From positions 62,001 to 126,000 of the forward strand of contig NZ_VULN01000002.1 in assembly GCF_009696675.1 (NCBI RefSeq): 64,000 nt of DNA, read 5' to 3'. A program made the position numbers and the translations under genes. Each line of letters opens with the position of its first letter. Within the stretch, counting starts at the first letter, position 1. This DNA comes from Acidaminococcus fermentans. Lineage in GTDB: Bacteria > Bacillota > Negativicutes > Acidaminococcales > Acidaminococcaceae. Below, piece after piece: positions 43,853 to 45,603 of the stretch. Under the pieces are notes generated by a model. The model did not search any database. It saw nothing but the letters and a program-made list of their open reading frames with translations, and had not been told where the DNA came from.

Positions 43853-45274
43853 TTAGAACCGGAAATCCCGTTCCCCTCCATCGATTTTCTGGAGATAGGA
43901 TTCGCAGGTGGCTCTTACTTGCGGGTTGGGAATGTGGTTCAGTTCTCTTTGGATGGCTTCCATGCCTTTCTGGCGGGTTTCCGGGGAGGCGTAGTCGTCC
44001 AGGTATTCCCGGAGGGTCAGCAGGGCATTGGGCTGGCAGCAGTTGGAGATTTCTCCCGTTTTGGCCAGGCTCATGAACCGGTCCCCGGTGCGGCCGGCCC
44101 GGTAGCAGGCGGTGCAGAAGCTGGGGATGTACCCGTCGGTGAGGAGCCAGTTGATCACCTGGTCCAGGGTCCGGTTGTCATTTACTTCAAACTGGGCGGA
44201 ATCTTCTTCTTCCTCTTCTGCATAGCCTCCTACGCTGGTCCGGGAAGCGCCGCTGATCTGGGAAACCCCCACTTCCAGTACAGCTTTCCGGGTGGCAGCG
44301 GATTCCCGGGTGGAAATGATGATCCCGGTGTAGGGAACGGTGATCCGCAGGATGGCCACGATCTTCTTGAACATGGCATCGGAAATGGCGTTGGGGAAGG
44401 ATTGGACGGAAATGTCGTCGGCCGGACGGATCCGAGGCACGCTGATGGTGTGGGGCCCTACCCCGAACATGGCTTCCAGGTGTTCCTTGTGCATCAGCAG
44501 GCCGGCAAAGTCATACCGGTACATATTGAGGCCGAACAGCACCCCGACTCCCACGTCGTCGATGCCCCCCTCCATGGCCCGGTCCATGGCTTCCGTATGG
44601 TAGGCATAGTCATGTTTGGGACCGGTGGGATGGAGCTTTTCGTAGTTTTCTTTATGGTAGGTTTCCTGGAACAGGATGTAGGTGCCGATACCGGCTTCCT
44701 TCAGCTTCCGGTAGTTTTCCACGGTGGTGGCGGCGATGTTCACGTTCACCCGGCGGATGGCGCCGTTTTTGTGTTTGATGCTGTAGATGGTATGGATGCA
44801 TTCCAGGATGTAGTCAATGGGGTTGTTCACCGGATCTTCCCCGGCTTCCAGGGCCAGCCGTTTGTGGCCCATGTCCTGGAGGGCAATGACTTCTTTCCGG
44901 ATTTCGTCCTGGGTGAGCTTCTTCCGGGCAATGTGTTTGTTCTTCATGTGATAGGGGCAGTACACACAGCCGTTGACGCAGTAGTTGGACAGATACAGAG
45001 GGGCAAAGAGCACGATCCGCTGGCCGTAGATCTTGTCCTTGATTTCCCGGGCCAGGTCATAGATCCCTTCCAGGATGGAGGGGTCTTCGCAGGCCAGGAG
45101 CACGGAAGCTTCCCGGTGGGTGAGGCCTTTCAGGGTCCGGGCCTTTTCCAGCAGGCTCCGGCAGTAGTCCAGGTCTTTGCTCTGCTTATCCGCAAAGGCC
45201 AGGGTGTCCAGGATTTCCTGGTGGTTGATGAATTCATCCGCTTTCGGAGATGCAGGATTGTACGGTATGGTCAT
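43853..45274 (-). CDS. hydG: [FeFe]-hydrogenase maturase HydG (tyrosine lyase)
   Basis: A 473-residue radical SAM enzyme that cleaves tyrosine to CO and CN- for the H-cluster. The SAM cluster motif CVNGCVYC spans residues 99-106. The C-terminal motif CTACYRAGRTGDRFM with a later CC pair carries the second, dangler-iron cluster site. All features needed for activity are visible. GAGGAAAAA precedes the ATG. It stands alone here, without hydE, hydF or hydA, behind a structured leader with its own promoter. Confidence 0.96.
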   Translation of the reverse strand: MTIPYNPASPKADEFINHQEILDTLAFADKQSKDLDYCRSLLEKARTLKGLTHREASVLLACEDPSILEGIYDLAREIKDKIYGQRIVLFAPLYLSNYCVNGCVYCPYHMKNKHIARKKLTQDEIRKEVIALQDMGHKRLALEAGEDPVNNPIDYILECIHTIYSIKHKNGAIRRVNVNIAATTVENYRKLKEAGIGTYILFQETYHKENYEKLHPTGPKHDYAYHTEAMDRAMEGGIDDVGVGVLFGLNMYRYDFAGLLMHKEHLEAMFGVGPHTISVPRIRPADDISVQSFPNAISDAMFKKIVAILRITVPYTGIIISTRESAATRKAVLEVGVSQISGASRTSVGGYAEEEEEDSAQFEVNDNRTLDQVINWLLTDGYIPSFCTACYRAGRTGDRFMSLAKTGEISNCCQPNALLTLREYLDDYASPETRQKGMEAIQRELNHIPNPQVRATCESYLQKIDGGERDFRF

Positions 45275-45304
45275 TTTTTCCTCCCCTTCGCTCCCTCTGA
45301 AATA

Positions 45305-45437
45305 GAAAAAAGGAGCCCGGCCTGAAAAAGGCCCAGCTCCCCCTGTGATTCGTTCCTGTACTGCCTTAGTACTCGGTTCACCTTGTACGCAGGGAGCAGA
45401 TTATGGATATTGTAACGTGTGGAACAAAAAAAAGCAA
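45305..45437 (-). ncRNA. hydG promoter and structured leader RNA with competing terminator
   Basis: On the - strand, TTGCTT (45437-45432) and TACAAT (45414-45409) are 17 bases apart. Transcription would start near 45402. The RNA can fold as a stem GCTCCCT/AGGGGGAGC (plus positions 45391-45397 with 45336-45344) enclosing GTGA/TCAC and a hairpin GTACT-AAGGC-AGTAC. The 3' arm of this stem is also the 5' arm of a terminator (plus 45312-45323 with 45329-45340, then T6). The two folds exclude each other, the layout of a riboswitch or attenuator. I recognise no known class. Confidence 0.65.
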
Positions 45438-45531: not shown

Positions 45532-45603
45532 TGTATTTTGGACTCACCCCAATAATCATTTCTGTTCGTACTTACACGATCCTGTATTTTGGACTCACCC
45601 CAA
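45532..45603. repeat. Pair of 21-bp direct repeats
   Basis: The same 21 bases, beginning TGTATTTTGGACTC, occur at 45532-45552 and 45583-45603 with 30 bases between. They lie just after the stop of the - strand gene at 45616. There is no third copy nearby and no cas gene. The origin is unknown. Confidence 0.85.

Follow-up and report, generated by a model that had tools for sequence, protein, structure and literature searches.

A conserved hairpin in the hydG leader of Acidaminococcus, with features of a transcription attenuator, and a similar hairpin in related bacteria

The hydG gene of Acidaminococcus fermentans is preceded by a 40-nt core hairpin at the predicted transcription start site, and one strong copy of this hairpin lies before hydG in all nine Acidaminococcus genomes examined, each of which contains the gene. 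On balance we favour a reading of the leader as a transcription attenuator acting in cis, in which stabilisation of the core by an effector would shut hydG off. Most probably the core is a diverged form of a more widespread RNA element, so far undescribed, found before hydG or hydE-hydG-hydF operons. HydG makes carbon monoxide and cyanide ligands from tyrosine, and gating hydG alone, even within maturation operons, would therefore be chemically sensible. The features of the leader in the window (the whole stretch of 64,000 nucleotides that was analysed) are as follows.

43853-45274, minus strand: hydG, the putatively controlled gene (TIGR03955, E 7.7e-274)
45432-45437, minus strand: -35-like TTGCTT; TTGN at the same place in nine of nine species (by eye)
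45409-45414, minus strand: -10 TACAAT, 17 nt from the -35; TAnAAT in nine of nine species (by eye)
~45402, minus strand: predicted transcription start site
45359-45398, minus strand: core hairpin UGCU C CCU [GC] GUAC [AA] GG UGAA CC [GA] GUAC [UA] AGG C AGUA (R2 match, invariant columns, pair counts)
45391-45397, minus strand: core 5′ arm GCUCCCU (DNA GCTCCCT), which can instead pair with the terminator 5′ arm
45336-45344, minus strand: AGGGGGAGC, shared by the terminator (as its 5′ arm) and the antiterminator (as its 3′ arm) (folds; shuffle control)
~45312-45344, minus strand: intrinsic terminator hairpin, with a T6 tract at 45306-45311 (fold)
45290-45296, minus strand: second copy of AGGGAGC, immediately preceding the ribosome site and complementary to GCUCCCU (folds, sequences)
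45280-45286, minus strand: hydG Shine-Dalgarno sequence GGGGAGG

Along the minus strand the promoter is followed by the hairpin, a few bases past the predicted start, then by the terminator and hydG. The R2 covariance model matches the leader at 45351-45404 with 72.4 bits. The promoter had been described in the initial annotation as clean, which is too generous, as the -35 matches three of six consensus bases and a simple promoter scan did not list it. We nevertheless accept the promoter because TTGN, a spacer of 17 or 18 nt and TAnAAT recur at the same place in all nine species (by eye). The same annotation placed a terminator directly before the hydG ribosome site; this terminator was missed by a simple terminator scan and is visible on folding. 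The arm shared between two pairings also has the geometry claimed for it, in that AGGGGGAGC is both the terminator 5′ arm and the complement, with a bulge, of GCTCCCT.

Two other sequences were noted near hydG. TTGTTCCACACGTTACAA (45410-45427, minus strand), which we take to resemble a site for Rex, an NADH-sensing repressor, overlaps the promoter spacer and the -10; genome G008 has TTGTTACACACGTTACAA, and the sequence is not conserved genus-wide. Upstream of hydG, TGTATTTTGGACTCACCCCA occurs twice, at 45532-45551 and 45583-45602, 51 bases apart; the paired copies are perhaps remnants of a mobile element.

The stability of the leader fold is unremarkable (z -1.9, reached by 8 of 200 shuffles, with promoter DNA included in the folded stretch). 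Across the eight distinct cores 26 columns are invariant, with the consensus GCU-C-CCU-[GC]-GUAC-[RA]-GG-loop-CC-[RA]-GUAC-[UA]-AGG-C-AGU. When genomes G000, G001, G004 and G008 were compared with G003, G005 and G007, identity at 4-fold sites of hydG was 0.33-0.44, as against 0.76-0.87 in the core; owing to its longer loop, G002 was omitted when cores were compared. G006, to which these ranges do not apply, has 4-fold-site identities to the others of 0.37-0.52 and core identities of 0.79-0.92. Conservation, not fold stability, is therefore what exceeds chance. Nine of the 13 core pairs are invariant, two vary on one side and two are changed on both sides (G-C to A-U and U-A to C-G). Core cells are paired in 95% of cases, compared with 21-45% in slid controls. 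Because so many pairs are invariant, and because 26 of 500 shuffles equalled the observed covariation, covariation within Acidaminococcus is thin. A tree of HydG supports the groupings G003+G005 and G006+(G004,G000,G001), and gives no resolution for G002, G007 and G008.

The initial annotation had proposed a covariance-model search of related leaders. Such searches found the structure conserved in nine of nine Acidaminococcus species, and a like hairpin in relatives (see below). The R1 model gave ten matches in 380 genomes of the class, namely the nine Acidaminococcus genomes and one weak match (G180, E 0.007) that we judged to be chance. The next-best R2 scores within the nine Acidaminococcus genomes had E values of 0.4 or worse. 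In 398 genomes of the phylum the R2 model found the window's own genome (1.5e-17) and eight others at E 5.8e-4 to 0.08; these eight looked like chance, and two of them lie within coding frames, presumably trpC and cheD. Applied to 46 other Negativicutes hydG loci, the same model gave no credible match (best E 0.11). Scanning with a strict pattern returned 13 stretches from genome contigs, five from Acidaminococcus and eight others lacking the inner helix, and none from viral contigs. One intergenic R2 match, at L094 1501-1564 in G656 (21.9 bits), has GCAC/GUGC in place of GUAC/GUAC and a UAAGGC motif, and is followed by a frame that we take to be AbrB/SpoVT. It was not found in two family members of G656, and is probably a chance match.

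Other interpretations of the core sequence were considered. An alternative pairing of CUGC with GCNG, leaving a UAAG bulge, was 2.2-5.5 kcal/mol less stable in the seven cores tested, and its pair counts were no better. A direct-repeat DNA operator (GTACAAGG/GTACTAAGG) is disfavoured by G002, in which both members of a pair are altered (GUAC/GUAC to AUAC/GUAU) and the loop is extended. A leader peptide was set aside, as the core has no conserved start codon (by eye). The G005 genome contains a sequence matching model positions 15-38 at 18 scattered places, which looks like an interspersed repeat.

The terminator arm can pair with the core in two different ways within the genus. In group A (G000, G001, G004, G006 and G008) the core 5′ arm GCUCCC can pair with GGGAGC in the terminator 5′ arm. 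The terminator of group B (G002, G003, G005 and G007) is of a GCAUGCC type unrelated to that of group A, and the opposite arm of the core is used: the 3′ arm AAGGC plus GYGAA pairs with UUYGC-A-UGCCUU, or in G002 AGGC with GCCU. The GCUCCCU/AGGGGGAGC stem is thus found in five of the nine species, and CUCCC is invariant even in the four that lack it. Either antiterminator disrupts the core. Ensemble folds of progressively longer transcripts gave the core, then the antiterminator as the first arm of the terminator emerged, then the core together with the terminator, in eight of nine species. The exception was G006, where the probability of the core was 0.10 alone and at most 0.05 in all longer transcripts; the full-length ensemble of G005 was split 0.50/0.44.

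To gauge this competition, terminator arms were shuffled and those reaching the observed level were counted. In group A the counts out of 400 were 29 (G000), 30 (G001), 87 (G004), 41 (G008) and 3 (G006), and in group B 14 (G002), 7 (G003), 13 (G007) and 5 (G005); the counts of the nine species are not mutually independent. As 29 of 400 shuffles match the arm pairing of the window's genome, a single sequence is no more than suggestive, and arm complementarity is weak in single group-A species, as the count for G004 illustrates. In G006 (L007) a strong hairpin is inserted between core and terminator, with arms around ACAGCAGGAAATGTGC and GCACACATCCTGTC, and the GCUCCC/GGGAGC complementarity is kept. 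Counterparts of the second AGGGAGC (45290-45296) are present in all five group-A species and are favoured in their full-leader folds; its pairing with GCUCCCU may provide an extra, translational layer.

Since both antiterminators destroy the sole conserved structure, stabilisation of that structure should favour termination, making the folded core the predicted OFF state. In the attenuator we propose, the conserved 5′ core would fold first. If unstabilised, it would be invaded by the 5′ arm of the terminator, giving the antiterminator and transcription of hydG; a bound, stabilised core would release the arm, so that the terminator would form and hydG would be off. The overall logic would be that of a PyrR-like anti-antiterminator. 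Conservation, covariation, linkage to the gene and the mutual exclusion of the pairings are observed; the sign, the kinetics, the tie between the two forms of the element and the existence of an effector belong to the proposal. In other Acidaminococcaceae and other families the element would work from a position abutting the hydG ribosome site or preceding a terminator. The putative binder would report that H-cluster maturation is sufficient. The genus offers a natural experiment, one sensor hairpin with two antiterminators on opposite arms, and it is extended by sister genera in which a hairpin of like design lies at the ribosome site.

This second hairpin, R3, emerged from reading the leaders of the 46 other Negativicutes hydG loci, and is conserved directly before hydG in six other Acidaminococcaceae genera. 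It has the structure CU[RA]N4[GA]AGN-loop-NCU[GA]N4[NA]AG, and its ribosome site overlaps the hairpin or immediately follows it (by eye). Cells of R3 are paired in 95% of cases and none of 500 shuffles reached its covariation score; the number of pairs changed on both sides is not unusual (378 of 500 shuffles). The R3 model matched 17 of the 380 class genomes at E<=1e-5, and tblastn located hydG immediately behind the element in 16 of these, the L154 piece giving no hydG match. Among 348 phylum genomes there were eight matches at E<=1e-3, against about 0.35 expected by chance. Five of them (L162, L163, L164, L167 and L168), elsewhere in the phylum, lie directly before hydG. The other three, all from one genus, precede a HydE-like gene, and the gene order in G480 is element, terminator, hydE, hydG, hydF (NCBIfam). 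In the genus with hydE leaders the 3′ arm of the element is predicted to compete with the terminator arm, to values of 0.80, 0.69 and 0.19 in three leaders. In four of the phylum hydG cases a TM1266 gene is located about 1.1-1.2 kb upstream, a distance that would accommodate one intervening gene, and the element is right before hydG. From this placement hydG itself seems to be the target of the R3-type element. Neither form is present at most hydG genes of Negativicutes: R3 was found in 17 genomes and R1 in nine, compared with hydG in 187 of 380.

Matches to R3 with E > 1e-3 were dropped as chance (four in the class and six in the phylum), apart from L171. L175 lies inside a hydG-like coding region. 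A pattern-perfect hairpin in G399 (L171; L184 9870-9905, minus strand) lies about 165 nt before SsuA/NMT1-like ABC-transporter genes, by birA. Its E value of 0.0023 is one that chance could yield in 348 genomes, and it is doubtful as a genuine element; if real, it would hint at a transported ligand.

The two forms are alike in position, the Acidaminococcus core lying directly before hydG and R3 before hydG or a hydE-hydG-hydF operon. The same gene, the same place and equal lengths of helices and loops as far as the cap all speak for common descent, and folds of hydE leaders also contain the CCU/AGG outer stem of the core. The R3 model, run with filters off, gave no match at the nine Acidaminococcus leaders, and the R2 model gave none at the element in nine R3-type loci. 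As neither model detects the other form, we regard common descent as likely yet unproven. A joint structural pattern was composed of CU/AG outer pairs, a 2x2 loop, a 4-bp helix, an RA x RA loop and a cap with a 2-bp stem, A-U or G-C then G-C. All nine cores fit this pattern, which was written after both forms were known and is relaxed to accept GC x UA for RA x NA in loop 1 and C-G for G-C at the inner pair. It had no match in 2.56 Mb of Markov sequence, and 226 kb of real sequence yielded nothing but the elements already known. Helix P1 was paired in 96 of 100 cells over 25 sequences (18 R3-type and seven Acidaminococcus, identical and near-identical rows being omitted), where whole-strand shuffles averaged 58 (0 of 2000), a result inflated by the difference in composition between the two forms. 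The 18 R3-type sequences alone gave 68 of 72 cells paired, against 58.7 in shuffles (0 of 2000).

The conserved bases form a near-palindrome, CURA-N4-RAAG-loop-CUGA-N4′-NAAG, with two-fold pseudo-symmetry. Judged from the sequences, two copies of one module appear to face each other across a 4-bp variable helix. Given the pseudo-symmetry, the likely reader of the element is an RNA-binding protein acting as a homodimer, or a ligand bound in two copies.

Within the attenuator reading, binding by a protein is a serious possibility, though we stop short of calling it probable. Such binding might be autogenous, by HydG or another maturase, or involve a protein of the TM1266 family. The pseudo-dyad of the RNA would suit it, as would the hydG-specific placement inside operons with TM1266 upstream and the presence of the TM1266 family in nine of nine Acidaminococcus genomes. 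Against this, many loci that lack the element also have TM1266 adjoining hydG, and in Acidaminococcus and the hydE-operon pieces the two genes are not neighbours; adjacency therefore fails to track the element and does not single out TM1266. HydG, other maturases and the TM1266-family protein are not known to bind RNA. The other form of the attenuator, a riboswitch turned off by a small metabolite of H-cluster maturation with no protein involved, is a more tentative proposal. It is consistent with conserved internal loops between variable flanking pairs, with the linkage to hydG and hydE, and with the one doubtful importer of SsuA/NMT1 kind. For an aptamer, however, a rod-like hairpin of 30 nt with symmetric loops is small, and two like half-modules would suit a dimeric protein equally.

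We think it unlikely that the 5′ hairpin is constitutive and the terminator leaky, with no effector, or that the terminated RNA of about 95 nt is a trans-acting sRNA. CUCCC could pair with Shine-Dalgarno sequences, but the internal-loop bases and the antiterminator potential are conserved, and like elements recur before hydG with another platform. Of the initial annotation's interpretation, a structured hydG leader controlling a terminator has stood. Its closing stem and its sign have not. In that model the form sensed would be a domain with GCUCCCU/AGGGGGAGC as closing stem, whose stabilisation allows read-through. This is improbable: the stem does occur in group A, including G006 with its long insertion between the arms, and in G008 and G006 the inner hairpin persists within it, but the stem is absent from group B, where another antiterminator exists, and it disrupts the CCU/AGG pairing, invariant in all nine species, so that the opposite sign is predicted. 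The signals suggested in that annotation, tyrosine, SAM, iron and redox state, are conjectural candidates.

Taken as a whole, the element may tentatively be viewed, at less than even confidence, as a new class of regulatory RNA for [FeFe]-hydrogenase maturation, present in several families, which would sense H-cluster assembly through two like half-sites and stop hydG expression by termination or a block to translation. The form in Acidaminococcus would then be a divergent one, its antiterminator having moved from one arm to the other within the genus. The signal might be, for example, a product of HydG such as an Fe-CO-CN synthon, or a maturase protein. A sensor of H-cluster assembly would add a novel type of signal and would be of use as a tool for anaerobes that produce hydrogen.

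The initial annotation recognised no known class, and Rfam 15, searched at lax thresholds, likewise gave no plausible match at the Acidaminococcus leaders (seven of nine by locus) or at R3-type loci. Searches of the published literature, a limited negative since subscription journals were mostly uncovered, returned no description of structure in a hydG or hydE leader, nor of RNA-level control of [FeFe]-hydrogenase maturation. The single matching passage of PMC8632094 was unrelated. The leader is not assigned to the PyrR RNAs, as the PyrR binding loop is absent from the Rfam matches and the gene is hydG.

Several known systems nonetheless resemble the proposed attenuator. In the pyr operons a stabilised 5′ hairpin containing the PyrR binding loop is likewise an anti-antiterminator leading to termination; the hydG element differs in its symmetric 2x2 loops, its linkage to hydG and hydE and its lack of an Rfam match. 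The RAT hairpins of BglG/LicT systems are also pseudo-symmetric, about 30 nt long, with two internal loops, and compete with a terminator; binding there prevents termination, whereas here it should cause it. Another leader of this kind lies in the same window, a T-box (RF00230, 25392-25645, plus strand, 119.5 bits in Rfam), which shares with the hydG leader a terminator switch, and which, unlike it, is matched by Rfam. Small riboswitches with transcriptional and translational platforms similarly place one sensor hairpin before a terminator or a ribosome site according to the genome; the hydG element stands outside Rfam 15 and is tied to one gene system, and its ligand is hypothetical.
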